A DNA stretch of 64,000 nt. Source: a virus. The stretch is from positions 1 through 64,000 of the IMG/VR virus record IMGVR_UViG_3300017748_000001, one strand, 5' to 3'. Shown here piece by piece: positions 1,533 through 37,588 of this stretch. A program made the position numbers and the translations under genes. A model generated the notes under the pieces. The model worked only from the letters and a program-made list of their open reading frames with translations, was not told the origin of the DNA and searched no databases. Positions within the stretch are counted from its first letter, which is position 1; every line of letters starts with the position of its first letter.

Positions 1533-2372
1533 TTATAAATCCTTTTTATGCCAGTCTCTGCAGACATCCATCATTCTTTTGCGTCCTAAAAAATTAATAT
1601 CTGGATCATCCAATAAAACCTCAAATATCTTAGGTATGCCCGCATTAAGATGTAAATTTTCATGGTTCTTAATAGTAAACATTTCTAATTCTGGGAAATC
1701 CGCTCGAACTGGTTCTTTTTGACGAGGGCGATTTAGTTGAGGCCAAGTTTTATTCCAAAACAATTCCCTCACTTTAGGATCAAGATATGGAGTAACATGA
1801 ATTTTATTATATTTTTCTACAAGATTTGTGTGTTGACTTAAACCAGCACAATCTCCATCAAGATATGCAGTTCTAAACTGACTCCAAGTTACTCTTGGAG
1901 TGCCCGAAGGATTTTTTCTATGAACTTTTATATACTTCTTTGTTGTCGATATATCTCTGTATCTCTTGTATGCCTTTTTCCCTGGCTGAAAGTAACCATC
2001 AGAACCCCATCCAGTCAAAACATATTTTTGTTTTACTTCTGGATAAACATACAAAAATGGAAATACACACTCAAAGTGAGTCTTTTTTCTACATCCATGA
2101 TCTACAAGAATTTTCCAGTCATCTAGTAAATTTTCAGTTGGAACTTCTATGACAGAACAATCCCATCCCATCTTATCAGAAACTTCTTTTGCCTTAAGAG
2201 AATCATATGAAGGAGAATTTTTGAGATTAAATGTGTACGCAAAAATTCTTTTCCCTACATCTTGAGCTGCGATGGCCACAGATATAGAATCAACTCCACC
2301 AGACAACATAACTGCAACTTCACTTTCTGGCACATTGTTCTTAATGTGATCCTGCAGTATTTTTCTAATCAT
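1533..2372 (-). CDS. Asparagine-synthetase-like PP-loop ATP pyrophosphatase, no glutaminase domain
   Basis: 279 aa. Residues 23-29 are L-S-G-G-V-D-S, the PP-loop that binds ATP and releases pyrophosphate. Around residues 119-127 is T-G-W-G-S-D-G-Y-F, matching the G-x-G-x-D-E-L-F region of asparagine synthetase B. Further on, VTPYLDPKVRELF resembles the AsnB P-F-L-D segment. The family activates a carboxylate as an acyl-adenylate and couples it to ammonia or an amine. The N-terminal Ntn glutaminase half of AsnB is absent, so it would use free ammonia, an amine, or a partner. It overlaps the end of the DUF262 gene by 8 bp, so it is co-transcribed with that gene, the CmoA-like gene and the cytosine methyltransferase. 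I infer that it acts on a carboxylate made by those enzymes; a TilS-like or QueC-like role is the alternative. Confidence 0.75.
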   Translation of the reverse strand: MIRKILQDHIKNNVPESEVAVMLSGGVDSISVAIAAQDVGKRIFAYTFNLKNSPSYDSLKAKEVSDKMGWDCSVIEVPTENLLDDWKILVDHGCRKKTHFECVFPFLYVYPEVKQKYVLTGWGSDGYFQPGKKAYKRYRDISTTKKYIKVHRKNPSGTPRVTWSQFRTAYLDGDCAGLSQHTNLVEKYNKIHVTPYLDPKVRELFWNKTWPQLNRPRQKEPVRADFPELEMFTIKNHENLHLNAGIPKIFEVLLDDPDINFLGRKRMMDVCRDWHKKDL

Positions 2373-3891
2373 TAGCTAATCTTATTGGGGATGATCCGTG
2401 ACTTCGGTTTTCCTTTCTGGTCTCGACATAAGTATCAAAAGGATCAGAAGTGTAACTTTCCTTGTATGACAATTTACCATGGCCTTTTTCATAATCGCCG
2501 GTATGAAGTCTTTCGGGGTCAATTTCCGTTCCGGCTGGAGTCATCCAATCCTGACTTACTGCTGCCTCTGTTTTTTCATTATCGCTAACTACCCTAGGGC
2601 CGCGTTTTATCAAAAATTCTTCTATTTTAAAATTCTCAGTTAATAATTCGTTGCATTTTCGGGCATTTCCCATTTGTATTCCGGTTATTAATTTTTTATA
2701 CTGACTTTCTACTGAGCTTCCTGTCTTTGTAGTAGTGTACTTCTTTTTAGATTTCCAGAGTTTATTGTGCTCCTTAGTCAGCTTATCATAAAGTGCATTG
2801 AGATTTTTTTCTGGAATTACATATCCGTCGAGATACCAATATTTATAGATGTGGTAAAGATGTTGAATAACTATCTTATTCTTAATTCCCAGATATCGAC
2901 AAGAGCCTCTTTTATTTTTAGTTTTGAAAATTATGTCATCGAAAAAATGGTTAATAAACTTAATTGCAGCATTAACTTCCGAATCTTCCAGTTTATCTAT
3001 TTGGTAAATAAGGTCAAGTTTTTTGTTGGTTACTGCGGCCTTTGTCCAATCATAAATAAACATCCAAAGTAATTGTGCAAACCAAGCATCTGCCTTTCTC
3101 ATTGTCAATGCGTTATCGGTAAACCACTTACACCCTTCCTTTATAAGATATTCTTTGTATTTCTTTGGCAGTTCTCTAACCTTTTCTGCAACATAAGATG
3201 TAGAGGTGTTTCTGAACAGTTCTTTAGTAAAATGAACTCCCTCATTAATAGACCTACATATGCTAGAACATTTTTCGCGGCCAATATTAGTGAATACTAC
3301 AGTCGATATTTCGATGTGATTATGAAGATGATATTTCATCTTTTCGTCTAAAGTCGAGTATTTATCACAACTTTCGTCAACCTGTATAAGTTCGTATTTA
3401 TTGTCTGGAGTTATAACCTGATATGTCCCATGAGGAACAGTTATCTTGTCATGAATAAATCCAAGTAAAATTTTACCTTCATTTTCACCAGACGTAACAG
3501 AAGAGCCAGAAACGGTGCCAAGGGTCTCTTGTCTATTCCAAGAGTCTAAAACCATATATCCACCAGAAATACCTTCAGGAAACTTTTTTATCCACTTTTT
3601 CCAGTACTCTATATCTTCTTTTTTGTTGGCCTTCACAGCCGCTTCCCAACAACTCACAATACACGCAAATACAAAAGAAGTCACCGCGCTTCCGGACAGT
3701 AAACTTCTAATATATGCTTCAGCGTCTTTTTGAGACCAACGTCCAGAGCCACCATTTTTACTAGGAAAATCCGAATTAGCTTGATATGCTGGATCTGAAA
3801 GTAATGCAAGTGTTGCACATACATTAATATATTGTAAAAAAGTTAAAACTTCTTTTTTAGAATTTGAATAAAGATTGGTTTCGCTTTTCAT
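2365..3891 (-). CDS. DUF262 (GmrS/ParB-like) protein with possible degenerate HNH tail
   Basis: 508 aa from the ATG at 3891, whose codon overlaps the TGA of the preceding gene (ATGA); GGAG lies about 13 nt upstream. The N-terminal third has the DUF262 layout: R-W-S-Q-K-D-A-E-A-Y-I-R-S-L-L-S-G, then V-L-D-S-W-N-R (around residues 113-119) where the family has D-G-Q-x-R, then a segment ending S-I-N-E-G-V-H-F-T-K-E-L-F-R-N, matching the family's N-x-G-x-x-L-T-x-x-E-L-x-R-N. The C-terminus has L-H-T-G-D-Y-E-K-G-H and E-N-R-S-H-G, which could be a diverged HNH/DUF1524 nuclease. In GmrSD, DUF262 proteins with nuclease tails attack modified phage DNA; here the gene sits inside a DNA-modification cassette. 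The core DGQxR motif has changed, so nucleotide hydrolysis may be lost. Function unknown. Confidence 0.6.
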   Translation of the reverse strand: MKSETNLYSNSKKEVLTFLQYINVCATLALLSDPAYQANSDFPSKNGGSGRWSQKDAEAYIRSLLSGSAVTSFVFACIVSCWEAAVKANKKEDIEYWKKWIKKFPEGISGGYMVLDSWNRQETLGTVSGSSVTSGENEGKILLGFIHDKITVPHGTYQVITPDNKYELIQVDESCDKYSTLDEKMKYHLHNHIEISTVVFTNIGREKCSSICRSINEGVHFTKELFRNTSTSYVAEKVRELPKKYKEYLIKEGCKWFTDNALTMRKADAWFAQLLWMFIYDWTKAAVTNKKLDLIYQIDKLEDSEVNAAIKFINHFFDDIIFKTKNKRGSCRYLGIKNKIVIQHLYHIYKYWYLDGYVIPEKNLNALYDKLTKEHNKLWKSKKKYTTTKTGSSVESQYKKLITGIQMGNARKCNELLTENFKIEEFLIKRGPRVVSDNEKTEAAVSQDWMTPAGTEIDPERLHTGDYEKGHGKLSYKESYTSDPFDTYVETRKENRSHGSSPIRLAND

Positions 3892-4574
3892 TTTATAGCA
3901 ATTGCTCCTACAAATAAGTGGTTTCTCCAAAAAGGTTGGACTTCTTGAAATCCTGCTTCATACATCATGGATAGTAGATCGTCCCAGTGCATTGGTTTCA
4001 GCATGGATCTCAAAGTATACTCTTTATCCATAATATCTTCACAAGAAAACTCTTTTCTTTTGTGGTCATAAAAGAGGAATGTGAGTATCTGTTCTAGTTC
4101 TGGAGATGAGGCATAAGTCTTCTCAGAAAAAACGAATGCTCCGCCGGGAAGAAGAGAATCATATATTGAATCCAGAATAGATTGTCGATCTCGTTTTGGA
4201 ATAAACTGCAAAGTAAATATACTCGTTATGAATGAAGAGTCAACAGGAAATATAAAGTTTCTCACATCTTGAAAATGTAAACTGAGATTAGAATCAATAT
4301 ATTCTTCTTCTCTAGATTTCATATCTTCCGCAAATCCATCTGCATTTTCAACTCCATGATACTGTGCGTTAGGAGCCGATTCCTTATTCTGGTCAATCAT
4401 TGCCCCCAGAGTTTTTCCAGTAGAACAACCAATATCAACTACACTAGTATCATTTTCTACAAAGTATCTAGACATTGCAACTATATCATCATGAAGCGAT
4501 GAATAGTGACGAATAGATGCATCTATGTGAGCATCAAATCCTTCTTTTCTGTGTGCAAAAGTAAAGTCTGCCAA
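3888..4574 (-). CDS. CmoA-like class I SAM enzyme (predicted carboxy-SAM synthase)
   Basis: 228 aa. It begins with TTG at 4574, directly after the methyltransferase stop, with GGAG 9 nt upstream. The next in-frame ATG is 33 codons in and would remove the F-D motif (residues 13-14) that opens CmoA proteins. Motif I is V-V-D-I-G-C-S-T-G-K (45-54). The core S-I-F-T-L-Q-F-I-P-K-R-D-R, then L-P-G-G-A-F-V-F-S-E-K, and the end W-R-N-H-L-F-V-G-A-I-A-I-K follow the CmoA pattern (L-Q-F..R, G-G..SEK, W-F..N-F....A-x-K) rather than a generic methyltransferase. E. coli CmoA converts SAM plus prephenate to carboxy-SAM; from memory its carboxylate is held by an Arg near residue 199. The matching stretch here is around K184-R189, and I could not fix the alignment. 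A plain methyltransferase remains possible. Confidence 0.7.
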   Translation of the reverse strand: MADFTFAHRKEGFDAHIDASIRHYSSLHDDIVAMSRYFVENDTSVVDIGCSTGKTLGAMIDQNKESAPNAQYHGVENADGFAEDMKSREEEYIDSNLSLHFQDVRNFIFPVDSSFITSIFTLQFIPKRDRQSILDSIYDSLLPGGAFVFSEKTYASSPELEQILTFLFYDHKRKEFSCEDIMDKEYTLRSMLKPMHWDDLLSMMYEAGFQEVQPFWRNHLFVGAIAIK

Positions 4575-5771
4575 TTAAATTTTCTCCAATACATTTTCAT
4601 AGATAGACGCAGCAATTGACTGCATCATTTTTGGCGGAACCATTCTACCAATTCTTTCTGATTTCTGGTTCCATTTTCCGGTCAACTTAAAGTCATCAGG
4701 TAAACTCTGAATCCTCTTCAATTCGCCCAGAGTGAGTTTTCTAGGTTCTGCCCAATGGAATGCACCTGCTGTGGTGTCATTACTCCCCATCGCCGTTAGC
4801 GTGGGTGCTGGGGCGTATCTGGATACTCTTTTGAGGTTAAAGTGGTGTCCCTTCGGATGATAGTCCATTCCAGTCAAAACTTTCTTCGGATCGTCTTCCA
4901 TCTTACTTCCGGTCTGTAACCAATACGCAGTTTTACTAAACTTCTCTGTGAGATAATCAACTTCTTCTTGGTCATATTCTAAATCTATCAGAGCGTCCAT
5001 CAGGGGAATTACATCTCTAGATGGTTGTGGGAAAATATTTCCAACAGTCATAAAATTAAGACCAGCCTTCTCAGTAATGTCATTTCTAACACCGATAAAG
5101 ATGACCCTAGTTCTTGTCTGAGAAACACCATAGTATCTTGCGTCCATGACTTGAGATGAAACATCATATCCTATCTTTTCGAACTCGTTAAGAATTTTAT
5201 TATAGTATTGTTTCGCCTCGCCAATGGTTAGTCCTTTAACATTCTCCGCAACAATAACTTTTGGCTTGATGTCATTTGCAACTCTAAGGAACTCAAAGAA
5301 AAGATCTTCGATATTCTCTACCATCTTCCCATCAGAATAATTCTTGGTCTGACCCCAGCCATCGGAATGTTTTCCAGACACATTGACTATAGTTGTTTCT
5401 CCAAATAGATCAACCATCTCTTCCTTTTTAACATTGTGAGATAGTTTCCCTGCAACCGAAAATGCGGAACACGGTGGCGAACCGTCAAGGATATCTAACT
5501 CGCCTACATCCAATCCGACAATATCCAGAAAGTCTGATCCACTCAACTCTTTAATATCATTAGGTAGTATAGGAGTATTTGGGTAGTTTTCTGCATAGGT
5601 ATTTTGTGCTTCTTCGACAAATTCGTTCACACACAATACATTACCGCCAGCTAGACGATAACCAGTACTAGAACCACCGCCTCCTGCAAATGTGGATATG
5701 ACGTTAAACTTATTTTGTGCGGATGCAGTAAATACATCCTTAAGGGTATAAGGCTGATACATAGTATTCAT
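4575..5771 (-). CDS. C5-cytosine DNA methyltransferase with Arg replacing the motif X Asn
   Basis: 398 aa from the ATG at 5771 (another ATG is at 5762; an in-frame TTG at 5798 is really a -35 box). C5-MTase motifs appear in order: I, STFAGGGGSSTGY; IV, D-G-S-P-P-C-S-A-F-S with the catalytic Cys; VI, V-A-E-N-V-K-G-L; VIII, S-Q-T-R-T-R-V-I-F-I-G; IX, LTLGELKRIQSLPDDF; X, R-I-G-R-M-V-P-P. Motif X is normally G-N-(S/A)-V-P; here Asn is Arg (codon AGA at 4646-4644). The target-recognition region between VIII and IX is about 95 residues. The CmoA-like gene starts immediately after its stop. I infer that it transfers a carboxymethyl rather than a methyl group to cytosine in phage DNA. The MTase fold is certain; the altered donor is inference. 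Confidence 0.93.
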   Translation of the reverse strand: MNTMYQPYTLKDVFTASAQNKFNVISTFAGGGGSSTGYRLAGGNVLCVNEFVEEAQNTYAENYPNTPILPNDIKELSGSDFLDIVGLDVGELDILDGSPPCSAFSVAGKLSHNVKKEEMVDLFGETTIVNVSGKHSDGWGQTKNYSDGKMVENIEDLFFEFLRVANDIKPKVIVAENVKGLTIGEAKQYYNKILNEFEKIGYDVSSQVMDARYYGVSQTRTRVIFIGVRNDITEKAGLNFMTVGNIFPQPSRDVIPLMDALIDLEYDQEEVDYLTEKFSKTAYWLQTGSKMEDDPKKVLTGMDYHPKGHHFNLKRVSRYAPAPTLTAMGSNDTTAGAFHWAEPRKLTLGELKRIQSLPDDFKLTGKWNQKSERIGRMVPPKMMQSIAASIYENVLEKI

Positions 5772-5798
5772 TATCTCAAATTTTTTAGTCGTTGTCAA
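5770..5798 (-). promoter_or_regulatory. Strong sigma70-like promoter overlapping the methyltransferase start
   Basis: Minus strand TTGACA (5798-5793), 17-bp spacer, GATAAT (5775-5770), five of six matches at -10. Initiation about 7 bp further on (near 5763) would fall at the second ATG (5762), implying a nearly leaderless message. The box overlaps the last codons of the ribbon-helix-helix gene, a possible autoregulator. Confidence 0.6.
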
Positions 5799-5973
5799 GT
5801 TTTATTTCTACCGAGAAATTGTTGATATATTCTTTCATAAATCTACGGATCTCTCTGGATGCACTTGAGTCGTTTAGTTCGCACAGGGCAATAAACTTTT
5901 TCTTCTCTTCTTTATTGACTTTTATTAGCAGAGTAGAATCTTTTTTCTTAATGTCCAGATCTATTCCATCCAT
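5785..5973 (-). CDS. Small ribbon-helix-helix DNA-binding protein
   Basis: 62 aa. The segment S-T-L-L-I-K-V-N-K-E-E-K-K-K-F followed by two predicted helices (FIALCELND and SASREIRRFMKEYI) is the beta-alpha-alpha layout of CopG/Arc-type ribbon-helix-helix proteins. These bind operators as dimers. The ATG overlaps the TAA of gp46 (TAATG), so it is translationally coupled to gp46. Its end overlaps the promoter of the methyltransferase cassette, making that promoter its most obvious candidate target. The fold call is by pattern only. Confidence 0.6.
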   Translation of the reverse strand: MDGIDLDIKKKDSTLLIKVNKEEKKKFIALCELNDSSASREIRRFMKEYINNFSVEIKLDND

Positions 5974-7691
5974 TACTTCTCTTCCACTATCCTACTGAAG
6001 TTTTTGACTTTATCGAACTTGATGATGCTTCGGAACTTATCATACAGAATCTCTCCCTTGTGAGATATGACAAAGACATTATTTCCGCCAAGTTGATTAA
6101 GAAGTTTTAAGAACTCATCTGTTCCATTACTATCTAATGAACTATCAAATACTTCATCTAATATCAAAAGATTTGTATTTACACTATTCTTCATCTTCGC
6201 AACTTCTCTCCAAGTGAACAGTAAAGCCAAGTCGATTCGCATCTTCTCACCTTCTGAGAATGAACTATAAGAAAAGTTTTCTCTATTACGAGACTTGATG
6301 TTTTCTGAGAAGTTTTCATCCATCGTAAAGTTAACATAGAAATCCATTTGATGAAGATACTTGTTTATCAAACCATTCATAATAGGAAGATAGTACTTGA
6401 TGATAGAAGTCTTGATGCCACCATCCTTAAGAAGTGTAGAGGCAACATTTAAGTATTCTCTTTCTTCCAGAAGTTCTTCTCGCAAATTTTCTATCTTTTC
6501 TTTTTTATCTATAAACTTTTTTAGTTCCTTTCGCATCTTTGTAGTAGATGTATCCGTGGATTCAAGTTCTTCTACTTCTCTTTCATAATCCTTTATAGAA
6601 CTCTTCAGGCCTTTATTATGAGAAGTCTTTTCAGATATATCTGCAGTAAGATTAGATACCTTAGTTTGGGTGTTCAATAAGTCATCCATTCTTGCATTGA
6701 TGACTTCATACTCACTCTTAAAATCTTCTAGAGCTTGTTCTATTTCTTTTTGTTTATCCTTTCTTTCCGAAATCATCATTTCTTTGTGTGATGAATCGAC
6801 ATCCTGTTTACAAGTAGGACAATTATCAATATCGCGAAAAAACTCTTGATCTGTTTTAAGGGACTTAATCTTGGAAGTCAGTCCAGCACTAATACTATCC
6901 ATCTTGGATATTTTCTTTTGTACTGGTTTCAATTCGACAAGTGTATCATTTAACATACCGATCTTTGCATTAAGTTTTTCTACACAAGAATCATTATCAT
7001 CAATTTTTAATTGATATTCTTCTATCTTCTTCTTCGATGACTGTATGAGTTTCTTTCGGTCTTTCTTTATCTCTTCTATACTAGATTCTTGCAAATGAAT
7101 CTGATTATCTATGATGTTTCTTTCATTACTATTTTCTTTGACACTCTCTTTATGATCTATTAATCTAGATTTGAGTATCTCGTTCATAGAAGAAAATATC
7201 TTAATGTCCAGTAGATCTTCAATAATGTCTCTTCGGTCTTTTGCCGATAGTTGCATAAACGGAACAAAAGTTGCAGAACCTAGTATCACTGTTTGAGTGA
7301 AAGACTTGAAGTTAAGTTTGAGGATATTGTCTTCGAGATATTTTTGATAATCTTTTATCTTTGAATCTTGATTGATCATCTTTTTATTATGATATATCTC
7401 AAAGATGCCGGGCTTGATACCTCTACGAATCTTATACTGAGTCTTCCCTACCTTAAACTCAATCTCAATAAGACAATCTTTCTCATTAACTGAATTGGGG
7501 AGTTGTGGTTTGTTTATCTTACGGAAAGGTTTCCCAAACAATCCAAATGTTAGAGCGTCTAGAACAGTAGATTTTCCTGCTCCGTTTGCTCCAAGAATTA
7601 ATGTGGTAGGGGATTTGTCAAATAATATTTCAGTAAAATTGTCTCCAGTGGAAAGAAAATTCTTCCACCGTATTTTTTGAAATTCTAACAC
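5973..7691 (-). CDS. 46: Recombination endonuclease subunit gp46 (Rad50/SbcC-like)
   Basis: 572 aa; T4 gp46 is 560 aa. With gp47 it forms the nuclease/ATPase that resects DNA ends for recombination-dependent replication and degrades host DNA. Walker A is L-G-A-N-G-A-G-K-S-T near residue 35. A central coiled coil is split by C-P-T-C, the zinc-hook CxxC, near residue 285. The signature motif F-S-E-G-E-K is near 480, and Walker B is L-L-I-L-D-E-V-F-D-S. The start is GTG at 7691 (N-terminus LEFQKIRWKNFLSTG is typical of gp46), overlapping the TAG of gp47 by one base (TAGTG). Confidence 0.97.
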   Translation of the reverse strand: MLEFQKIRWKNFLSTGDNFTEILFDKSPTTLILGANGAGKSTVLDALTFGLFGKPFRKINKPQLPNSVNEKDCLIEIEFKVGKTQYKIRRGIKPGIFEIYHNKKMINQDSKIKDYQKYLEDNILKLNFKSFTQTVILGSATFVPFMQLSAKDRRDIIEDLLDIKIFSSMNEILKSRLIDHKESVKENSNERNIIDNQIHLQESSIEEIKKDRKKLIQSSKKKIEEYQLKIDDNDSCVEKLNAKIGMLNDTLVELKPVQKKISKMDSISAGLTSKIKSLKTDQEFFRDIDNCPTCKQDVDSSHKEMMISERKDKQKEIEQALEDFKSEYEVINARMDDLLNTQTKVSNLTADISEKTSHNKGLKSSIKDYEREVEELESTDTSTTKMRKELKKFIDKKEKIENLREELLEEREYLNVASTLLKDGGIKTSIIKYYLPIMNGLINKYLHQMDFYVNFTMDENFSENIKSRNRENFSYSSFSEGEKMRIDLALLFTWREVAKMKNSVNTNLLILDEVFDSSLDSNGTDEFLKLLNQLGGNNVFVISHKGEILYDKFRSIIKFDKVKNFSRIVEEK

Positions 7692-8737
7692 TACGCAGGC
7701 TCTCTTAATGCAGTAATATATAAATCTTGAATCAAACCTTTAAGTCGATTCTTATCCAAATCTAAGTTATAGTCATCTATGTATCCGGAGAGAAGAGACA
7801 TAGTATCTTCTATAGATTGTGTCTCATCCATTCCTTCAAACTCGTATGTATCGTCAACTACAGATACATCAACGACATCGTTGTTGTATAATTCATCTAT
7901 CAGATTATCCAATAAATGTTGTTTTGTCTTATTTTTAACGATCACTTTAACATATTTTTTATTGTATGTCGAGTAATTTATTTGGCCGAGTTTTTCTTCA
8001 TCATAAAAGATCTTATGAAACATACGATATGGATTCTGAATGAATTCTATCTCGTTTGTGTCTGTATCATATATGTGGAAACCTCTAGGATCGTTGTAAT
8101 CAATCCAAGTTGTTTCGTAGGGGCTTCCAAGGTAATGAATATTTCCATTGTTTGATTTGTGATGGAAATGGCCAGAGCAAACCAATTCGAACTTTCGAAA
8201 CATACCAATGTCAAAACCATCTTCGCACTTGATACCGCGACTCATTTCAAATCCGGCTATCTCCAAATGACCAAAGAGAGTTGTTGCTTCAGAGTCCCTG
8301 ATATGAGTTTTGCATATATCATAGTTTCCAGAATTAATCCACGGCATGAAACAAATATCTCTGCCGTCGAAATTGAGAGTTTCTGGATCAGTATAAACTT
8401 TAGGAGCATACTCATGATTGAAGTCTATCAGTTCATTCATAGAATTGATATCATTCGTATTCTTAAAATAGGTATCATGATTTCCGATAATGATATGAGT
8501 TTCTATCTTATCATTTTGCAATCTTTTCATGAAACGAGTATTCATCCCATGAAGGATATTGAAGTTGATAAACTTTCGTCTATCCACAACATCCCCCAAA
8601 TGAATCATCGTAGTAATATTGTTCTCTGACAGATATGGAAAAAACACATTGTCATAGAACTCCATCATGTAATCAAAGAAGACTAGGGAATCCCCCCTAG
8701 CTCCAAAATGAGTATCAGTCAAGAGGGCTATTTTCAT
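7691..8737 (-). CDS. 47: Recombination endonuclease subunit gp47 (Mre11/SbcD-like)
   Basis: 348 aa from the ATG at 8737; AAGGAAC lies 7 nt upstream, so the longer open frame to 8803 is not used. Metallophosphoesterase motifs appear in order: L-T-D-T-H-F-G, L-G-D-V-V-D-R, G-N-H-D-T and S-G-H-F-H-H, which bind two metal ions in Mre11-type nucleases. Partner of gp46, encoded directly downstream with a 1-bp overlap. Its first 23 bases overlap the end of gp55, an arrangement that couples their translation. Confidence 0.97.
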   Translation of the reverse strand: MKIALLTDTHFGARGDSLVFFDYMMEFYDNVFFPYLSENNITTMIHLGDVVDRRKFINFNILHGMNTRFMKRLQNDKIETHIIIGNHDTYFKNTNDINSMNELIDFNHEYAPKVYTDPETLNFDGRDICFMPWINSGNYDICKTHIRDSEATTLFGHLEIAGFEMSRGIKCEDGFDIGMFRKFELVCSGHFHHKSNNGNIHYLGSPYETTWIDYNDPRGFHIYDTDTNEIEFIQNPYRMFHKIFYDEEKLGQINYSTYNKKYVKVIVKNKTKQHLLDNLIDELYNNDVVDVSVVDDTYEFEGMDETQSIEDTMSLLSGYIDDYNLDLDKNRLKGLIQDLYITALREPA

Positions 8738-9266
8738 TCTGTTCCTTTTTCTTCGCTTTTGCTCTGGTCTTCTTAGTCTTCTCAGATTTCTCAAAGTCTT
8801 CAATAAATCCAGACATATTATTTTGCATGAACTCTAGATAACTTTTCTTAGTCACTCCACCTGCCTCAAGTATGTCATCTTCTAAGACATGGCGTTCAAG
8901 AGATTTGTACTTAACATAAGTCTGTTTTTTCTCTTTCTGCATCCTTCTTATAAAGGCATAGTAAATTATCTGAGTAAAATATGCAAAGGGGTTTTTAGAT
9001 TTCTCTGGATTAAAGTTATCTATGTATAGAAGACAGTTCTCTATTCCATCAGAAATCATTTCATCTTTATATGTGTAGTTAATAAAGTTGGGGCGATACG
9101 AAAGATGATTAGAAATCTTCATAATACATTCTCCAATGTAATTGGGAATTCTAGGCCTCGGATTGCCTTTCTCTTTCGCATCAATGACAGAATTGCGAAA
9201 TTCTATCATTGCAGAAAGGAGTTGCTTATTATCTACATAGTGTGCGTTTTTCTTTTTTTCTGCCAT
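8715..9266 (-). CDS. 55: Late-transcription sigma factor gp55
   Basis: 183 aa from the ATG at 9266; T4 gp55 is 185 aa. It directs host RNA polymerase to TATAAATA late promoters, of which this window has more than a dozen exact copies. The sequence N-P-E-K-S-K-N-P-F-A-Y-F-T-Q-I-I-Y-Y-A-F with R-R-M-Q-K-E-K-K is the conserved sigma region 2-like core. An upstream ATG at 9293 and TTG at 9320 extend the frame, but the TTG is the -35 box and the 9293 ATG overlaps the -10 box of the gene's own promoter, so 9266 is preferred. Confidence 0.93.
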   Translation of the reverse strand: MAEKKKNAHYVDNKQLLSAMIEFRNSVIDAKEKGNPRPRIPNYIGECIMKISNHLSYRPNFINYTYKDEMISDGIENCLLYIDNFNPEKSKNPFAYFTQIIYYAFIRRMQKEKKQTYVKYKSLERHVLEDDILEAGGVTKKSYLEFMQNNMSGFIEDFEKSEKTKKTRAKAKKKEQNENSPLD

Positions 9267-9291
9267 TGGGTTCTCGTTAAAAGTTGCATAC

Positions 9292-9320
9292 ATTGTAACA
9301 AATGATGGTGCGTTTGTCAA
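9292..9320 (-). promoter_or_regulatory. Sigma70-like promoter for gp55
   Basis: Minus strand TTGACA (9320-9315), 17-bp spacer, TACAAT (9297-9292). It would start transcription near 9285, 20 bp before the gp55 ATG at 9266. A host-type promoter fits, because gp55 must be made before late genes. Confidence 0.75.
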
Positions 9321-9346
9321 ACATTAAATATTTTTTAATTTAACAC

Positions 9347-9375
9347 TTGACATACGCCGGTTGTATGTGTATAAT
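9347..9375 (+). promoter_or_regulatory. Consensus sigma70 promoter pointing rightward (antisense)
   Basis: Plus strand TTGACA (9347-9352), 17-bp spacer, TATAAT (9370-9375): twelve of twelve consensus bases. It is divergent from the gp55 promoter and would transcribe the plus strand into the antisense of the 128-aa gene and uvsW. AAGGAA (9392-9397) then ATG (9405) opens a 20-codon frame ending at 9467. No other rightward signal is seen in the window. Confidence 0.6.
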
Positions 9376-9401
9376 AAATCTGTTGTGATTTAAGGAATAT
9401 T

Positions 9402-9788
9402 CTAATGCTTAATCTTATCTTCGAATTCTTTCAACGCGTTGATGTAATCATCATTAGATTTATCTAATTCTTTCTCTGTCATTGCATCGTCAAAAGACTT
9501 AAAAGATATTCTTGAATTCTTTGATTCTAATAATTTTTTATAGAACTCTATGATTTCATCTTTACATGAAACTATAATTAAAACTTCACTTTTTTGTATT
9601 TCGTAGTCTAACTGCGGAGAATAAGGAATCCAATCTGAAAAGGCAAGGTATGCCTCGGAAGGTCTTAGGCCCGTGGGTATCCTACTTAATTGCCAAGGCC
9701 TGTGGATTATGTAGTGATCTCTACTTTCCCCCTTCATTCCGCCTAGGATATCCTCACCGTTCTTTAATCTAAGTATCTTATAATCCAT
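9402..9788 (-). CDS. Conserved small protein downstream of uvsW, possibly Sm/Hfq-like
   Basis: 128 aa. It begins M-D-Y-K-I-L-R-L-K-N-G-E-D-I-L-G, a pattern (short beta strand then N-G-E-x-I-x-G) common to small Sm-like proteins of marine T4-like phages, and ends in a charged helical tail. Its start overlaps the end of uvsW by 11 bp. I know of no assigned function; RNA binding would be a guess from the strand pattern. A possible late promoter (9843-9850) lies 55 bp upstream, inside uvsW. Confidence 0.6.
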   Translation of the reverse strand: MDYKILRLKNGEDILGGMKGESRDHYIIHRPWQLSRIPTGLRPSEAYLAFSDWIPYSPQLDYEIQKSEVLIIVSCKDEIIEFYKKLLESKNSRISFKSFDDAMTEKELDKSNDDYINALKEFEDKIKH

Positions 9789-11274
9789 CTTTATACATTC
9801 TTATTTCATTGATCTTAAAGTCAAATTTCTCTTCATTATAGATATTTATACGTTCAAAAAAGTGCCTAAGAGCAAAGTTAGTATGGGATTTATGTTTAAG
9901 ATCATCGACAATATCATAAAGAACCGCACTCTCTTTCCTATCTCCCTTTCTCAATCCTCTACCAATTGATTGAAGATTTCTTATCTTACTCTTAGAAGGA
10001 GAAGCAAACACAACATTGTGAAGATTCTTTATGTTGATACCAGTTGAGAATGTACCATAAGAGGCAACAATGATTGCGTTATCGGATTCTTCTGTGGTGA
10101 GCCTAACCTCTTCTCTATTGCCTACTTTAGTTTCACCACTTACATAGAACAAAGGTCTATCCGAATCTACCTTTTCTTGTAATTGTAAGAATAAAGGCTT
10201 ACCGTGTTTTTCTACAAAGTTAAAGAGAACTAGTGTATTGCCTTTGAGACTATTTGTCAAATTAACTATGAAGTTGTTTCTTTTTTCATTTCTCACTATC
10301 CAATCAATTTCATCCGGATATGGCATTTTCTTTGTTTCTTTACATTGTTCGTCTGAGTATTTGAGAACTAGACATTCAATCTTAAAACTAGAAAGAGTTT
10401 CATTATCAATTAATTTTCTAGTGGTTGTGACTTTCTTAACATCCCCAAATAGACCAGTGAGAACTAACTTGTGAGTTTTAGTTCCGTCTAATGTTCCTGT
10501 GGTGCCGAACCTATATTTACACTCGGTCATCTTCTCCATAATCTTCATAAGAGAGTTGGCTTTGAATAAATGACACTCATCTCCAATAACTGCACCGAAC
10601 TGATCAAAGTATGGCTTTCTCTCTTTGTATATAGATTGCCATGTAGAGATCACCACTCTCTTGTCCGTAGTCTTGGATTGTCCCTGATAAATGACATGGC
10701 ACTTATTCTTGACATCAAATCCATAGTCTTGGAAGTCTGCATACATCTGAGAAACCAAAGAGGTAGTCGGAACAATTATTAGTATTTTCTTACCAGACAA
10801 ATCCGGATGCATTAGATAAAATCTTATCAAGGTATAGATGATAAGAGACTTCCCAGAAGCTGTTGGTGATAACAGCAAACATCTGTCTTTATTGATAGCG
10901 GTCTGTATTGCGTCTAGTTGATAATCTCTGTATGTTAAAGGTTGTCCCTTAGATTGAGGTTTAACATATTCTGCTAGTTCTTTGAGATTATCCTCATTGA
11001 ATATAACTCTATCTGGCTTTTCGCAAAAGAATTCATACTCATTCATTTCGCAGAAGTTCTGGACTTGATTAATCAGTCCAGCATATATCTTTCTATTGGT
11101 AGGGTTAAACAGACGAATCTTTCCATCCCACACCTTATTTCTATATGCAGGCATAAACTTTGCGCCAGGCACTTCGTAGGTAAAGTAATCCACCAATTCC
11201 TTCAGAATGAATAGTTCATCCGAATCCAGAATATAATGCACTTCGCTGTGTTTATGTGCGGTTACCGATTGCAT
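9778..11274 (-). CDS. uvsW: UvsW DNA/RNA-DNA helicase
   Basis: 498 aa. Superfamily 2 helicase motifs: L-L-S-P-T-A-S-G-K-S (Walker A), I-G-D-E-C-H-L-F (DECH box), G-T-T-G-T-L-D (motif III), and S-I-G-R-G-L-R-K-G-D (motif VI). In T4, UvsW unwinds R-loops and branched intermediates and helps switch from origin-dependent to recombination-dependent replication. Its ATG overlaps the TAA of uvsY (TAATG), so the two are coupled. Confidence 0.96.
   Translation of the reverse strand: MQSVTAHKHSEVHYILDSDELFILKELVDYFTYEVPGAKFMPAYRNKVWDGKIRLFNPTNRKIYAGLINQVQNFCEMNEYEFFCEKPDRVIFNEDNLKELAEYVKPQSKGQPLTYRDYQLDAIQTAINKDRCLLLSPTASGKSLIIYTLIRFYLMHPDLSGKKILIIVPTTSLVSQMYADFQDYGFDVKNKCHVIYQGQSKTTDKRVVISTWQSIYKERKPYFDQFGAVIGDECHLFKANSLMKIMEKMTECKYRFGTTGTLDGTKTHKLVLTGLFGDVKKVTTTRKLIDNETLSSFKIECLVLKYSDEQCKETKKMPYPDEIDWIVRNEKRNNFIVNLTNSLKGNTLVLFNFVEKHGKPLFLQLQEKVDSDRPLFYVSGETKVGNREEVRLTTEESDNAIIVASYGTFSTGINIKNLHNVVFASPSKSKIRNLQSIGRGLRKGDRKESAVLYDIVDDLKHKSHTNFALRHFFERINIYNEEKFDFKINEIRMYKDGL
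9843..9850 (-). promoter_or_regulatory. Possible late promoter inside uvsW
   Basis: Exact TATAAATA on the minus strand, 55 bp before the ATG of the 128-aa gene, within the distance range of the other late promoters. It is inside coding sequence (I-N-I-Y-N), so chance is possible. Confidence 0.35.
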
Positions 11275-12312: not shown

Positions 12313-14478
12313 TTATGCTTTATATGTAGCTACCGCACCCTGTACTCCAGCACTAACGTATATCTGATCATCGCCAAATGCGACATCTGCACCAAATCCC
12401 GTATAACCAGACCCTTGCGGATTCCACATATTTGGCCCGCTTGGAAAATTAGTTCCATCCACTTTTGCAAAGAAAAACTTCCCTGCGCCACCGTCGGCAT
12501 CGGGAGCACCGAACACCACATGGTCTCCTTCTGGAGATATATCAACAGATTGTCCCCACTTACTATTAGACTCGGAAACTTGAGTGTTAGCCCTCCAAGA
12601 ATTGACACAGACCCCAGTAGATACATCAAATACGGAAACAATACCTCCTGTCGAGTTCCCTGACTGTCTACCTCGCATATCTCCAATGACTAACTTAGAA
12701 CCATTTGGAGTAATTGCCATTGATCTATGTTCTGTCCCAGGCCGCGATTCATTATTTACATCGCCGTTCCCGGCCGGGTTACTTGTGTTGATAGTTCTTA
12801 TATAAGAACCATCGGAAAGGTTATAAATGAATACCGCTCCACCAACCATGTCACTCCCGCTCCACATATATTCTGGAGAAGAAACCGCCAGAAGTCCTGC
12901 CGATGCAGCTATCGCAACAGCAGAGCCAAACCTTATATTTGACATTTCGCTCTGACCTGCTGTACCATTGTAAGGATTAGTAGGTCTTTCTAGAACATAA
13001 CCATTTGCAAACGCAGAAGATTCATCTGGTTGACTTAAATCATATACAAAAACTTTTCCGCAGTTAGGTTGTCTGTAGCTAGTATTGACGAGATGTTGCA
13101 TCTTTGCATCGGGCGCGCCAATTGCGAGATAACCACCACCAATGTCAATCGTTTGTCCATACGAAGACCCTCCACTATAATATGTATCATCTTGTACTTG
13201 TTGTGGGAGATATGAATCTCTTGGAGTAAACATAAATTTAGCAACTGGCTGGCCAAGCGTTTGAGTTCCGTCTGTATTCACCTTCCAAACTTGTACATCA
13301 CCATTATTATAGTGAGATTGGAATGCAACCAGATTTCCATCTAATGCTAGTTTTGTTCCTCCGTTGTCTGGAGTATATGCTCCTGTATGCCAAGATAAAG
13401 CATGACCGTTATTTGCCGCTGGGCCCAAACCACCAAAAGATCCCCCTTGCCCAATCCAGTTTGGCAGAACATAATCGATTGTATTTCCAAGAGCGCCGGA
13501 TCCTACAGAACTATCATATATCTCAACAAACCCTCCATTACTATTATATTTCGTCTTGGAGGTTACGAAAAATTCACCAGAAGTGGCCATCCATTTACCG
13601 AATTCCTCGCCTTCATTACTGGTATTATATCTAGTATAAATGTCAATACTGTCCCAATTAAAACCAAAAGTAAGAGTAAACTCTGAAGGAGTTGTGGTTG
13701 TTAAGTTAGTTCCGTCTGATGCAGTGAATGACAATGAGAAAGAACCAGCATCCGCACTATTAGAACTTGCGGAAATTGTGAAAACATTATCTGCTTGTGA
13801 TACCGTAGTTCCACCTAAGGCCCCTGCAGTTACTTGATAACTATATGTTATTGCATCTCCTTGCGGATCTGTTGCAGCAAGAGTAATCACTGTATCAGCG
13901 CCAGGCGATAATGCATAAGAACCATCTGGAGTTGTTGTGAAGTTTGGTTTTTGATCAACCAATCCTACACCAACCCATGATGCACCTGTGAAGATATAGA
14001 GTTTCTTATTCTCTTCTACGATACCCTTTGCACCAGCAGCAACTCCGCTTGATGGCAAATCTCCAACTGTCGCATAAACTGTTAATGCATCTGGCAATGC
14101 AGTGTAAGACAGAACACCAGTTCCAGCATTATATGATAAGTCTCCAGCCGCACTGAATGAACTTCTGACTCTTGAGTCGGTCACATATAGGTTACTAGAA
14201 CCTTCCGCAACTTGAGTAGAAGTCGGAGTTGCAGCACCCGCCGGAGTTCTGAGTTTCTTAACACCGAATGCAAGTTTCTCAATATCTGCAGTAGACGCAC
14301 TAGTCGCCATCGCAGATACTTTTGTATCTAATGCAGTTTCTAAATCTGCATCATCGTCTAGATTTGCCTTCTCAATTGAACGAGACAACTTGACGATCTG
14401 ATCTGCAGTGGTTGCAGAACCTAGCGCAGCCAAGAGTTTTGTTTTGAGAGTATCTCTTGAAGTAAATGTATTAGCCAT
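12313..14478 (-). CDS. Seven-bladed FG-GAP propeller virion protein, type A
   Basis: 721 aa. Order: an N-terminal helical module of about 80 aa (MANTFTSRDTLKTKLLAALG) shared by nine proteins in this window; a beta linker (LYIFTGASWVGVGL); a cadherin/He_PIG-like domain with D-P-Q-G-D-A-I-T-Y near residue 210; then seven beta-propeller blades, each with a hydrophobic strand such as Y-L-A-I-G-A-P-D or H-V-V-F-G-A-P-D followed by V-F-V-Y-D or similar. Integrin-alpha-like FG-GAP propellers commonly bind protein or glycan. Residues 1-270 are nearly identical to the gene at 35680-37584, but the propellers differ. I infer a fibre or surface-displayed receptor-binding protein. AGGA lies upstream; it is followed by a terminator. 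Confidence 0.75.
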   Translation of the reverse strand: MANTFTSRDTLKTKLLAALGSATTADQIVKLSRSIEKANLDDDADLETALDTKVSAMATSASTADIEKLAFGVKKLRTPAGAATPTSTQVAEGSSNLYVTDSRVRSSFSAAGDLSYNAGTGVLSYTALPDALTVYATVGDLPSSGVAAGAKGIVEENKKLYIFTGASWVGVGLVDQKPNFTTTPDGSYALSPGADTVITLAATDPQGDAITYSYQVTAGALGGTTVSQADNVFTISASSNSADAGSFSLSFTASDGTNLTTTTPSEFTLTFGFNWDSIDIYTRYNTSNEGEEFGKWMATSGEFFVTSKTKYNSNGGFVEIYDSSVGSGALGNTIDYVLPNWIGQGGSFGGLGPAANNGHALSWHTGAYTPDNGGTKLALDGNLVAFQSHYNNGDVQVWKVNTDGTQTLGQPVAKFMFTPRDSYLPQQVQDDTYYSGGSSYGQTIDIGGGYLAIGAPDAKMQHLVNTSYRQPNCGKVFVYDLSQPDESSAFANGYVLERPTNPYNGTAGQSEMSNIRFGSAVAIAASAGLLAVSSPEYMWSGSDMVGGAVFIYNLSDGSYIRTINTSNPAGNGDVNNESRPGTEHRSMAITPNGSKLVIGDMRGRQSGNSTGGIVSVFDVSTGVCVNSWRANTQVSESNSKWGQSVDISPEGDHVVFGAPDADGGAGKFFFAKVDGTNFPSGPNMWNPQGSGYTGFGADVAFGDDQIYVSAGVQGAVATYKA

Positions 14479-14495
14479 TTTATTTTTCCTTTAAA

Positions 14496-17387
14496 TTAAG
14501 AAATTATTCCTTTTATGATTCTCAGATTGTTTGTATTCAAATCTCCACCAATCGCATAGTTCTCTACCATAGTTACTCTATCGATATTCAGAAGGGCAGT
14601 TTCATGTTTAATTTCGCCCGTAGATATCTGAATTATATATGAGTCCCAATTATGAGAAACTACTGCGTAGTCTCCGTATGCTTCGATTTCCTGACCGAAA
14701 TTATATCCAGCAGTGCTCTGTCGATCATAATAGGCTATACCTGACCCACCAGCAGTGTTTTCATCTATTGTGAATTCTAATGTTCCTGTAGGCATATCGA
14801 AAATGTGGACTTTACCGTGACCGTCATTCGGATCACCAATAATAGCCTTGTCTCCAGAAACTGCAATTCCATTTTCTCTACCAGAAATACCGCCAAATCT
14901 ACCATTAACTACTGGATTTGGATCGTCAAGTCTAGAGACTTCTTGTCCAGTTAAATAATCTATTATGTGTACTGCCCCCGCTTGATATGCTCCGGAATGA
15001 CTATACATATCTTGAACTGCAAGATAATTTTCTCCCATATCGTGGTTATAAGCTGCGATACCAGCATTTGGATTTGAATTAACTATATTCCAAGGATGAT
15101 TAGTATCGGTATATTGCCAAACTATCTCCCTTGTATCCCATTTGACCATTGCATACTGATTATACGCTGTTCTGGGTAAGAAGATATAATTTCCATGCAT
15201 ACTAATACTCTGGACTTGATTACTTCCCCAGCCTGGGATACTTAGAAGAGATGACCCACCATCAGCATAACTTCCGTCAAGCGCGGAACGAACTCTAACG
15301 CTCCCTCCTTCGATAGCGGCAAAATAATCTCCGGAAGAAGCCATTGCTCCATTATCATCTGGGACACTACCTGCTGATGATACATTCCATATCAGAGAGT
15401 TATCTGCCAAATCATATGCGTAGAACGAATTGTGATCAAACCCAGCGATTACTATATTTCTACCATCCGATAATTGAGTAGAAGTTAGAGTGTGTCCGAT
15501 GTCAGTCCCACCTATTGTGGCTATTGTTGAGTCTGCCGCAGACCAATCTATACTAGAGGCACCAGAACCTCCACCAGATTGAGTAACTGGAGCCTCAAAG
15601 ATATAGGCCCGATGATCCAGAGCGCCCGGGCCCTGAGCAACTAATATTTTTCCGGTTGTCTTGTCTGCTGATATAGAACGACCAAAGTATTTATTGTGGT
15701 TATGATTTGCAGAAGATGAAAGGTCATCTGGATTGTCTAGTGTTGCCAACAAAGATCCGTCTGTTATGCTATAGAAATAAACCCTACCTCTTCGATGAGG
15801 AAAACTTGAGAATTCTCCCCCAGTGTCTGCGGTAGGGGCAGAAATCATAATTGTATCACTAGAAAGAATTTTCGCCTGTGTTCCAAAGTATTCATTTTGG
15901 GAAGCATTTGGAGTTACTATTGTTCTAATTAGATCACCAGAACTATTATATATGTGTACAGCACCGGCGTTTGCCTCGCCCGAGACTATTGCCTCTCTTT
16001 CGCAAAATGCAGCAATGAAATCCCCACTATTTTCGAATACATCAACACTGTGTCCGAATGGGGCTGTATATCCGCTAGGTTGTACAAATTTGCTATCTCC
16101 TACGCCAGAAGGTATCATGTCCCCAGTAGTTGCGTCAAACACCGAACCTCGGTTTTCTAAACCCACGCCTTGATACATTCCCGGCGATGCAGTGACAAGA
16201 ATATTTCCTGATATAGCAACCGACTCGCCAAACTTGTAACTGGGGTTCTGAGTATAACTTTGTAATGAGAGAGTATATTCGTCTGCACTGGGAAGATTGT
16301 TCTTGTCTGAAATGTCATAGACGTATACTCTTCCTCGGTTACTGAGGTTTCGCGGAGCTCCAACAACAAGTTTAGAACAATCTTCATTCAATGCAACACT
16401 CTGACCAAATCTACAGTCGTTAGCTAGTTCTGATGGTCTTGTTATTGTTGCTACAACATTACCTGTACTTGCTTGAATAATTCTTACTCTATCCTGATTC
16501 ATATGATAACCAGAACTAATTGCAATATAATCTCCGGACATCGCTGTTGGGCCATGACCTTCGTAGTCAACTCCTTGTTGACCATTTGATACTGTTCCGG
16601 TAACACTGTGTTGTAGAGTTGCTGTCTCGGTATCGTAAATGTATAGTGTGCCCCTATAACTGCCAGCATTTTCCGAATCCGCAATACAGAAATAATCTCC
16701 GGATATTGCTGCAGAGTTGCCCCACCTAGAATCTCCTAGAGATTGTACTCTATGTACAAATGTCGTATTGACTGACTGCCAGTCTACCTGAGAGGTAGAA
16801 CCTCCACCTGCTGCAACTACCGCTGCAACTTTCCATTCTGATCCATCCCAGTATTTCAATTCTGATGTTTGTTGATCAAAAACAACCTGGCCTCCAAATG
16901 CTCCAGAAGCAGGAATATTTTCTGTTAACCCGATTTCTTGAATTCTGAAAACCTGTGAGTTATTCTCAAATAAACCATTGACATGATTGTAGACCAAAGT
17001 CTCATCATTCATGATAGAAGATATATTGACCTCACTGAGAGTAGAAACTGAAAGTCCACCCCAAGATTCTGCAGTTCCATTTGTTGCAAGGAAGTTACCG
17101 GAGTTTTGTGCTTGGTTTGGAAGTGTTCCACCAGCGACAAATGTTTCTGGTTCTAGGACATTACCGATTGCTTTACCAATACTCTTGAGTTCTGTTGCAG
17201 TCGCGGATGGAGCTAGATCTTCTGCTCTTGCGTTGATTGCAATTTCTAAATCTGTGTTCTCTGACTGTTCCAAACTAGGAGCAAGTCTTGAGATGTTCAT
17301 TAACTCTCTTGCAGTCGCAGTGACAGCAACTGTAGACGCCCTATTAGTGAGGGCGGTTATTGAAGGATCTAAATTTGTATCTGACAT
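14496..17387 (-). CDS. Double seven-bladed FG-GAP propeller virion protein, type B
   Basis: 963 aa. The N-terminal module (MSDTNLDPSITALTNRASTV) holds two copies of an A-T-A-x-E-L helical motif; a linker with L-K-Y-W-D-G-S-E-W-K follows. The first seven-bladed propeller runs from about residue 210 to 610, with blades such as K-L-V-V-G-A-P-R and T-I-M-I-S-A-P-T. A Gly/Ser hinge (SGGGSGASS) leads to a second propeller of seven shorter blades ending at the C-terminus. Paralogue of the gene at 37589-41635: N-terminal modules alike, heads unrelated in detail. It lies between the type C and type A genes with 17-18 bp gaps, so one operon. Predicted role: surface adhesin of the particle. Confidence 0.75.
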   Translation of the reverse strand: MSDTNLDPSITALTNRASTVAVTATARELMNISRLAPSLEQSENTDLEIAINARAEDLAPSATATELKSIGKAIGNVLEPETFVAGGTLPNQAQNSGNFLATNGTAESWGGLSVSTLSEVNISSIMNDETLVYNHVNGLFENNSQVFRIQEIGLTENIPASGAFGGQVVFDQQTSELKYWDGSEWKVAAVVAAGGGSTSQVDWQSVNTTFVHRVQSLGDSRWGNSAAISGDYFCIADSENAGSYRGTLYIYDTETATLQHSVTGTVSNGQQGVDYEGHGPTAMSGDYIAISSGYHMNQDRVRIIQASTGNVVATITRPSELANDCRFGQSVALNEDCSKLVVGAPRNLSNRGRVYVYDISDKNNLPSADEYTLSLQSYTQNPSYKFGESVAISGNILVTASPGMYQGVGLENRGSVFDATTGDMIPSGVGDSKFVQPSGYTAPFGHSVDVFENSGDFIAAFCEREAIVSGEANAGAVHIYNSSGDLIRTIVTPNASQNEYFGTQAKILSSDTIMISAPTADTGGEFSSFPHRRGRVYFYSITDGSLLATLDNPDDLSSSANHNHNKYFGRSISADKTTGKILVAQGPGALDHRAYIFEAPVTQSGGGSGASSIDWSAADSTIATIGGTDIGHTLTSTQLSDGRNIVIAGFDHNSFYAYDLADNSLIWNVSSAGSVPDDNGAMASSGDYFAAIEGGSVRVRSALDGSYADGGSSLLSIPGWGSNQVQSISMHGNYIFLPRTAYNQYAMVKWDTREIVWQYTDTNHPWNIVNSNPNAGIAAYNHDMGENYLAVQDMYSHSGAYQAGAVHIIDYLTGQEVSRLDDPNPVVNGRFGGISGRENGIAVSGDKAIIGDPNDGHGKVHIFDMPTGTLEFTIDENTAGGSGIAYYDRQSTAGYNFGQEIEAYGDYAVVSHNWDSYIIQISTGEIKHETALLNIDRVTMVENYAIGGDLNTNNLRIIKGIIS

Positions 17388-17405
17388 TTGTTTTTCCTAT
17401 TTAAA

Positions 17406-19508: not shown

Positions 19509-19543
19509 GGATTTTCTCTCTCCAGTATAAAATGATTTTCTTA

Positions 19544-19551
19544 TATTTATA
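19544..19551 (-). promoter_or_regulatory. T4-type late promoter for the C-B-A propeller operon
   Basis: Exact TATAAATA on the minus strand, 36 bp before the ATG at 19508 and downstream of the terminator at 19573-19599. Confidence 0.85.
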
Positions 19552-19572
19552 AAAAAAGTATTTGAGTTTTCC

Positions 19573-19599
19573 AAAAAGGAAGGGGGCGATGCCCCCTTC
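19573..19599 (-). terminator. Rho-independent terminator
   Basis: Minus strand GAAGGGGGC, loop ATC, GCCCCCTTC, then a short run of T: a 9-bp stem. It sits between two late promoters, so it ends the short transcript that starts near 19663, as well as any read-through from gp23. Confidence 0.88.
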
Positions 19600-35634: not shown

Positions 35635-35679
35635 TATTGTTTCCTATTCTGAATTAATCTGTTGTGCGTATAATATCGT

Positions 35680-36770
35680 TTAACCTAACGATACAGCGGA
35701 TCCAAACTTATGGACAAATCCACCATCGCTTGCAGTGACCTTAATTTCATTAGATCCACCTAAATCATAAATATAAATTGCCCCTGATTGGTTATCTATG
35801 CTACTGTCACCAAACGCGCCGACTACAATCTTGCCGTCTGCAACTCCTACGGAACTACCAAAGTACTGATAATCCGTACCGCTATTGGCCATGAGTTTAA
35901 CTTCATTATTTCCATTTAGATCGTAGATATAAACAGCACCGGCGTTAGTTCCATTCTCATCCTCGTTGCGTGCTCCCACAACAATTTTGCCTTCGCCGAC
36001 TGCAATTGCGTCTCCAAAATAATCTCCGTTTGCGGAATCACTTGCCTTGATGTGGACTTCATTGGAACCATCTAGGTTATAAACATGAACTGATCCAGAT
36101 TCATTATCATTGCGGTATGAACCAACAACGATCTTATTTTCGCCAACTGCAACCCTATATCCAAAGTATTCCCAAGCGGTCACGTCGGCCGAAGTTATCT
36201 TAAATTCATTAGAACCATCTAGATCATAGACATAAACTGATCCAGAGGCGCTTCCGTTATCATCATCTCCATATGCGCCAACAACGATCTTGTTGTTTCC
36301 AACTGCGACTGATTGGCCAAAGTTATCCGATTGAGCTCGATCACTGGCGATTATCTTGACTTCATTAGTTCCATCTAGATCATAAACATAAACGGCTCCA
36401 TTATCAAATCCGTTGCCATCATCGCTGAATGCCCCAACAACGATTTTGTTGTCTCCGCCTGCAACGGAATAACCAAACTCATCACTTTCCGCAGCATCGC
36501 TCGCGGTGATCTTGACTTCGTTAGTTCCATCTAGATCGTAGATATAAACGGCTCCAGAGTCGTTTCCGTTATCATCGTCTTTATTTGCCCCAACAATAAT
36601 CTTGCCGTCACTAACTGCAACTGAGTAACCAAACGAATCGTAGGCCCCAGCGTCACTTGCGGCAATTTTTACTTCATTAGTTCCATCTAGATCGTAAACA
36701 TAAACGGCTCCTGCGCTTGTCTGGCCATTGGCATCTGCATAATAAGCGCCAACAACAATCTTCGCAGGAA
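35680..36770 (-). repeat. Tandem blade repeats (7 units, about 156 bp each)
   Basis: Seven in-frame repeats encode the propeller blades of the type A paralogue. The segment encoding Y-D-L-D-G-T-N-E-V-K-I recurs with few changes in every unit and again in the neighbouring 1348-aa gene, so it offers homology for recombination between and within genes. Confidence 0.8.
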
Positions 36771-37584: not shown

Positions 37585-37588
37585 TTAA

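Follow-up and report, generated by a model that had tools for sequence, protein, structure and literature searches.

A pathway for the carboxymethylation of DNA has recently been demonstrated in the Synechococcus phage S-B43 (PMC12783734; Nat Commun, December 2025), where the phage CmoA produces carboxy-S-adenosylmethionine (Cx-SAM), CmoX installs 5-carboxymethylcytosine at GC motifs and CmoY attaches glycine to the modified base, such that 5-glycylcarboxymethyl-deoxycytidine (5gcxmdC) is detected in virion DNA. ParBc proteins were noted near CmoX in the same study, which leaves their function open, and our literature search found no second paper reporting the pathway. Here we describe a four-gene cassette that encodes homologues of CmoX, CmoA and CmoY together with a fourth protein of the DUF262/GmrSD_N type. 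It lies in a stretch of 64,000 nucleotides of viral DNA (positions 1 to 64,000 of the 127-kb IMG/VR record IMGVR_UViG_3300017748_000001), which we refer to as the window. Since homologues have already been published, the modification pathway is not new; what is new in this locus is the embedded fourth gene, which resembles SspE and GmrSD, and the exchange hotspot in which it resides.

For the fourth gene, the closest described systems are of a different kind. The GTPase activity of SspE is stimulated by the phosphorothioate of self DNA, whereupon the enzyme nicks DNA that lacks the mark (PMC9646914, PMC13251355). In phage T4, cytosine-specific endonucleases attack the host DNA, while the phage's own DNA contains hydroxymethylcytosine (hmC) (PMC6071114).

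The cassette consists of four minus-strand open reading frames (ORFs) at 5771-1533, with coordinates from the ORF list of an initial annotation that had been made from the sequence alone. In the order CmoX-CmoA-DUF262-CmoY, they are:

4575..5771, minus strand: CmoX, homologue of the DNA cytosine C5-carboxymethyltransferase; ATG at 5771, with TTG at 5798 as a possible start
3888..4574, minus strand: CmoA, homologue of the carboxy-SAM synthase; TTG start
2365..3891, minus strand: DUF262/GmrSD_N-type protein of 508 amino acids, a putative modification-linked nucleoside triphosphatase (NTPase)/nuclease
1533..2372, minus strand: CmoY, homologue of the AMP-forming amide ligase, 279 amino acids; AsnB synthetase domain only

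The TAA of CmoX abuts the TTG start of CmoA, which is preceded by GGAG, an ATGA overlap joins the CmoA stop to the start of the DUF262-type gene, and CmoY begins 8 nt inside the latter. The initial annotation had described a co-directional cassette of touching or overlapping genes for a C5-methyltransferase, a CmoA-like, a DUF262 and an AsnB-like protein, and this is borne out by the ORF coordinates, the junctions and the family matches.

Window CmoX matches PF00145 at 4e-57 (Pfam), and its best match in the PDB, over the full length and with an E-value of 1.5e-144, is 8YF3, the structure of SpCmoX with Cx-SAM. Identity to the S-B43 proteins amounts to 59% for CmoX, 52% for CmoA and 43% for CmoY. 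The catalytic and Cx-SAM-contacting residues, which are taken from the published work (PMC12783734), were traced in an alignment of 60 CmoX homologues, with the window protein numbered from the TTG start. The SPPC cysteine is C110, the equivalent of Arg350 is R385, and the Cx-SAM contacts F25, E47, F48 and D69 correspond to F37, E59, F60 and D81; all of these residues are invariant among the 60 proteins aligned.

With respect to CmoA, the best model is TIGR00740 (1.2e-26), with a score of 93.8 bits that does not reach the curated cut-off of 193.3, and the CmoA structures 4GEK and 1IM8 are matched at 1e-18. The protein groups with CmoA rather than with other class I methyltransferases, both by its best model and by its 52% identity to SpCmoA. 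Homology to CmoA would also be in agreement with a function in tRNA wobble modification (5-carboxymethoxyuridine, cmo5U), next to an ordinary 5-methylcytosine methyltransferase, and five tRNA genes are present elsewhere in the 127-kb record (G000: 102882-103171 and 121107-121670). However, the CmoB family (PF08003) has no match in the whole record, whereas the E. coli control was positive, and a cmo5U role was rejected on this ground. Furthermore, the methyltransferase has the Arg350 equivalent and all Cx-SAM contacts, it shares an operon with a ligase, and the biochemistry of the homologues (PMC12783734) speaks for DNA, such that we consider a tRNA role highly improbable. The initial annotation had reasoned similarly from the lack of CmoB and tRNA genes nearby, which is correct for CmoB throughout the record and for tRNA genes within the 64-kb window, where there are none, but not for tRNA genes in the remainder of the record.

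Window CmoY matches PF00733 at 7e-16 over residues 3-166, and it has the PP-loop SGGVDS, such that a synthetase domain of the SGGxDS type is linked to CmoX and CmoA in the window. It has no glutaminase domain, nor is there room for one before residue 3. The 43% identity to the glycine-ligating SpCmoY extends over the full length, and the invariant residues common to SpCmoY and 61 homologues are present. As judged from sequence, CmoY of the window belongs with the amino-acid ligase SpCmoY and not with the glutaminase-bearing cluster. Because it is a synthetase domain alone, ammonia derived from glutamine is an unlikely substrate, and we would expect the enzyme to use an alpha-amino acid, probably glycine. 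The lack of a glutaminase and the grouping with a glycine ligase thus make deoxycytidine plus 115 Da (5-glycylcarboxymethyl) a likelier product than the primary amide at plus 57 Da. The initial annotation had left amidation and conjugation of the carboxylate side by side, and of these it is conjugation, as a glycine amide, that gains support. Likewise, its proposal of carboxy-SAM, 5-carboxymethylcytosine and a ligase that uses the new carboxylate agrees with the published homologues and the conserved residues, whereas its statement that 5-carboxymethylcytosine is known only as an engineered base is outdated, since this base is natural in S-B43 (PMC12783734).

The association of the three enzymes was followed in 80 IMG/VR loci that were retrieved with CmoY alone as the query. 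CmoX is present in 76 of them, CmoA in 68 and both in 67, with the gaps mostly at contig ends; an association of this strength is far beyond chance. All four genes occur together in L014, in the order DUF262-CmoY-CmoX-CmoA, and the genes of L012 follow this order as far as CmoX, at which the contig ends. CmoA relatives are also found in named phages, among others of Synechococcus, Erwinia, Dickeya and Staphylococcus. The support for the pathway comes from the retained catalytic and Cx-SAM residues, the identities to active enzymes, the co-occurrence across the 80 loci and the absence of CmoB, and the cassette very probably specifies a phage DNA hypermodification of the CmoA-CmoX-CmoY type.

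Some of the loci depart from this arrangement. In L022, the DUF262-type gene, CmoY and CmoA touch each other, and CmoX is absent between CmoY and CmoA. The Alcaligenes phage Afa-NA1 (L119, PV550095.1 57473-68138) carries a CmoA homologue without any CmoX relative elsewhere in its record, and an annotated DNA adenine methylase lies ~2.5 kb downstream of CmoA; this locus is a lead for a non-C5 carboxymethyltransferase, a kind that the published survey did not find (PMC12783734). In two Staphylococcus phages (L118 5643-7468 and L121 5648-6646), CmoA stands beside an HhaI-like C5-methyltransferase with glycine at the Arg350 position, which would imply either another mode of Cx-SAM binding or an ordinary methyltransferase, and in L118 a PP-loop protein with SGGNGS in place of SGGVDS is located between the two. 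A second, distinct PP-loop ligase lies directly upstream of CmoY in L067 (1074-1979), L073 (349-1377) and five other loci, which suggests successive or alternative amide ligations, two in all. The record of L115 (G004, 7651-9850) contains a tandem pair of CmoX genes, 67% and 63% identical to window CmoX and possibly with different target motifs. In the Erwinia phage phB78 (L120, PP942979.1 29068-31146), CmoX-like matches fall in three pieces within one 723-amino-acid frame, which is a C5-methyltransferase with large insertions and is found ~15 kb from CmoA and CmoY.

While the initial annotation had recognized the enzymes, it left the DUF262-type gene, the least explained part of the cassette, uninterpreted. 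Relatives of this protein are encoded directly upstream of CmoY in L012, L014 and L022. A profile of the window protein and two relatives aligns with a DGGHR-HNH family from the same position in other loci (A3, see below) over 316 columns (hhalign; 94.8%, E 5.4e-8), and a member of A3 matches PF03235 (GmrSD_N) at 6.4e-7, below the curated cut-off. In Foldseek searches with a weak AlphaFold model of the window protein, the top PDB match is SspE (6JIV, 2.9e-3), followed by BrxU (7P9K, 5.1e-2), both of them restriction enzymes that sense DNA modification, and in BFVD, viral proteins annotated as GmrSD_N/DUF262 make up most of the best named matches, down to 6.5e-7. The sequence LDSWNR is followed by ICRSIN-x-G, in the same order as the DGQQR and FxxxN motifs of GmrS (PMC4619093). 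At the C-terminus, H471, D486 and N495 have an HNH-like spacing, and the full-length alignment is colinear with the HNH-bearing A3. The profile and model comparisons thus support a DUF262/GmrSD_N fold with a ParB/Srx-like N-terminal domain, and with it the earlier DUF262 label, though Pfam and NCBIfam give no match.

The position of this gene turned out to be a site of exchange. Among the 75 loci that have a gene upstream of CmoY, this slot is filled in 55 by one of four ParB/Srx-type families that BLAST does not link to each other:

A2 family, 31 loci: ParB/Srx-type, with an N-terminal GIY-YIG-like region
A3 family, 13 loci: DGGHR and HNH
ParB_N-like family, 7 loci: L019 matches PF02195 at 8.8e-6
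DUF262-type family of the window, 4 loci

PF02195, the profile named in the published work (PMC12783734), is matched by only 1 of 40 slot records. For A2, the structure model has a pLDDT (predicted local distance difference test score) of 78, and its best structural matches are KorB, ParB and sulfiredoxin. Its N-terminal region has conserved Y48, Y63-x-G65, Y80 and E115, and a modelled order of beta-beta-alpha-alpha-beta-alpha; since it lacks a conserved arginine and no A2 member scanned against Pfam matched GIY-YIG, we call it GIY-YIG-like only. In A3, by contrast, the HNH is clear, with PDB HNH matches at 8.8e-5 and 2.8e-4 and invariant H, N and N, and the family matches the model of a type II restriction enzyme (5.7e-7). 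A2 and A3 are not similar when their profiles are compared, no nuclease domain was seen in the ParB_N-like family, and GTDB genomes searched with one A3 protein yielded no relative.

The slot gene keeps its place before CmoY in rearranged cassettes, too (X-A-slot-Y, A-slot-Y-X, slot-Y-X-A). Between L010 and L011, the flanks on either side of the slot are 98.8% and 98.7% identical, but the gene within it has been cleanly exchanged, with an A2 gene in one locus and a ParB_N-like gene in the other, and on the CmoY tree at least 11 changes are needed to account for the four families. In a few loci the slot is empty, and a DNA polymerase directly adjoins CmoY. A single intergenic site that is variously occupied, empty or filled with another gene, together with the HNH and GIY-YIG-like domains of the slot families, might indicate that the fourth gene encodes a freestanding homing endonuclease and came to lie in the cassette by chance, as T4-like phages commonly harbour HNH and GIY-YIG genes as mobile elements. 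Some A3 genes are indeed located away from Cmo genes: ten A3 contigs were at first without CmoY, and two long ones (62 and 125 kb) have no Cmo genes at all. However, two others (G003 and G004), in which A3 is not linked to CmoY, do carry CmoX, CmoA and CmoY elsewhere on the same contig. Moreover, a ParB/Srx NTPase domain is foreign to homing endonucleases, the ParB_N-like family has no visible nuclease domain, the window gene overlaps CmoA and CmoY at its start and stop, and the slot does not merely gain and lose its gene, but receives one for another ParB/Srx protein in its stead. We therefore judge an origin as a homing endonuclease to be quite unlikely.

Alternatively, since the ParB/Srx fold is what the slot families have in common, the fourth protein might have no nuclease function and serve instead as a DNA reader or NTPase clamp, by which CmoX and CmoY would be recruited or regulated. 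This would agree with the place of the slot next to the ligase gene, with the published remark on ParBc proteins near CmoX (PMC12783734) and with the fact that the HNH-like region of the window protein is not confirmed. Yet S-B43 makes 5gcxmC without an adjoining gene of this sort (PMC12783734), the sister family A3 has a clear HNH, and repeated replacement by dissimilar proteins is not what one would expect of a core subunit. A clamp of this kind thus seems unlikely to us.

What we propose instead is a modification pathway coupled to a protein that acts in connection with the mark. CmoA would convert host SAM and prephenate to carboxy-SAM. CmoX would then flip out the target cytosine, with the SPPC cysteine attacking C6, the carboxymethyl group being transferred to C5 and the Arg350 equivalent holding the carboxylate, to which CmoY would join an amino acid, probably glycine. 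The resulting mark would shield the phage DNA against restriction. These enzymatic steps have been shown in close homologues, and we infer them here from identity and conserved residues. The fourth protein would be an NTPase of the ParB/Srx (DUF262) type whose C-terminal region resembles a nuclease. It might attack unmarked DNA of the host or of rival phages, and the modification on the phage DNA could serve either to exempt self from the attack or to license the protein, similar to SspE with phosphorothioate DNA or to T4 endonucleases II and IV with hmC DNA. Its fold type, location and exchange are computational results, from which we infer the NTPase and nuclease functions and the target. 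That the modification pathway goes together with some modification-linked role of the fourth gene, which we do not yet specify, appears probable to us. By analogy, the gene product may read the mark or act as its effector, to which we give somewhat less than an even chance. More broadly, the slot proteins may recognize the carboxymethyl-amide mark and direct their activity at DNA without it, and their exchange would fit an arms race. It is a more tentative idea that the hotspot supplies these phages with interchangeable SspE-like effectors, for which amidated cytosine signifies "self" and which cut the DNA of host or competitor where it lacks the mark, and, to the same degree, that the locus is a restriction system carried by the phage, licensed by modification and subject to diversifying exchange.

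A number of observations weigh against this proposal. The activity of CmoA, CmoX and CmoY in this phage rests on homologues. Window CmoX is longer than SpCmoX by two insertions, and hence its target motif may differ from GC. Arg199 of E. coli CmoA contacts the carboxylate, and this position is glutamate in window CmoA and in all 53 phage CmoAs aligned, SpCmoA included. Since SpCmoA is highly active despite this glutamate, the loss of Arg199 is no valid exclusion for the phage clade. An arginine one helical turn further on is kept in 43 of the 53, and the carboxylate must be held differently in the phage clade than in E. coli CmoA. With regard to the fourth protein, there was no match in Pfam (including PF03235), PHROGs, NCBIfam or PADLOC, PF03235 was also not matched by its copy in the record G045, and the phage collection, searched directly with the protein as the query, yielded no match. 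Its AlphaFold model has a pLDDT of 50 and thus low confidence. At the DGQQR position, its LDSWNR, invariant in three family members, keeps the D and R. The C-terminal region alone, when compared to the HNH of relatives, gave no match (0.5%), and the nuclease activity may therefore be lost. Finally, no gene of this type adjoins the cassettes of S-B43 and S-CRM01, and it is hence dispensable for modification.

The surroundings of the cassette contain the following genes, identified by reading of the sequence:

5785..5973, minus strand: 62-amino-acid ORF directly upstream of CmoX, ribbon-helix-helix-like
5973-8803, upstream of the cassette: T4 gp46- and gp47-like genes
3-1448, downstream of the cassette: peptidase-like ORF

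The 62-amino-acid ORF has no Pfam match; it is a possible regulator of the cassette, and we are unsure whether it belongs to it. Further along the minus strand of the window, at 12316-19598 and 33385-43756, long ORFs of structural appearance form paralogous arrays in which the N-termini are nearly identical; they appear to be tail or fibre genes that have been duplicated.

Our analysis adds a further T4-like lineage to the range of a base modification reported in December 2025, and it provides a handle on the question of what the ParB-type proteins near CmoX do, which the original report left open (PMC12783734). Should the slot proteins be modification-licensed nucleases, they would constitute a phage mirror image of the bacterial phosphorothioate/SspE immunity, with exchangeable effectors.

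In comparison with S-B43, the window has the same three enzymes with the same diagnostic residues, in a compact co-directional cluster of a T4-like phage. However, the gene order is A-Y-X in S-B43 and X-A-[DUF262]-Y in the window, which in addition embeds the DUF262-type gene and has the longer CmoX with two insertions. As to the fourth gene, T4 endonucleases II and IV (denA, denB) differ from its product in fold, and to our knowledge they are not encoded as a cassette with modification enzymes. They nonetheless set the precedent of cutting unmodified host DNA while the modified cytosine protects the phage (PMC6071114). With the type IV restriction enzymes GmrSD and BrxU (PMC4619093), the fourth protein shares the GmrSD_N fold, and its relative A3 matches PF03235 and has a C-terminal HNH. 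However, GmrSD is a weapon of the host against modified phage DNA, whereas the gene described here is part of the phage's own modification operon, such that the GmrSD logic must be reversed or self-tolerant. The best PDB fold match is SspE (PMC9646914, PMC13251355), the DUF262-HNH effector of the Ssp defence system that senses phosphorothioate. Both proteins have a DUF262 N-terminus, with a motif that may be DGQQR-like in the fourth protein, and a long C-terminal region, and both genes are coupled to DNA-modification genes; the fourth gene differs from it in having DSWNR, an unconfirmed HNH and no Pfam-level match, and in being carried by a phage, beside a base-modification pathway.

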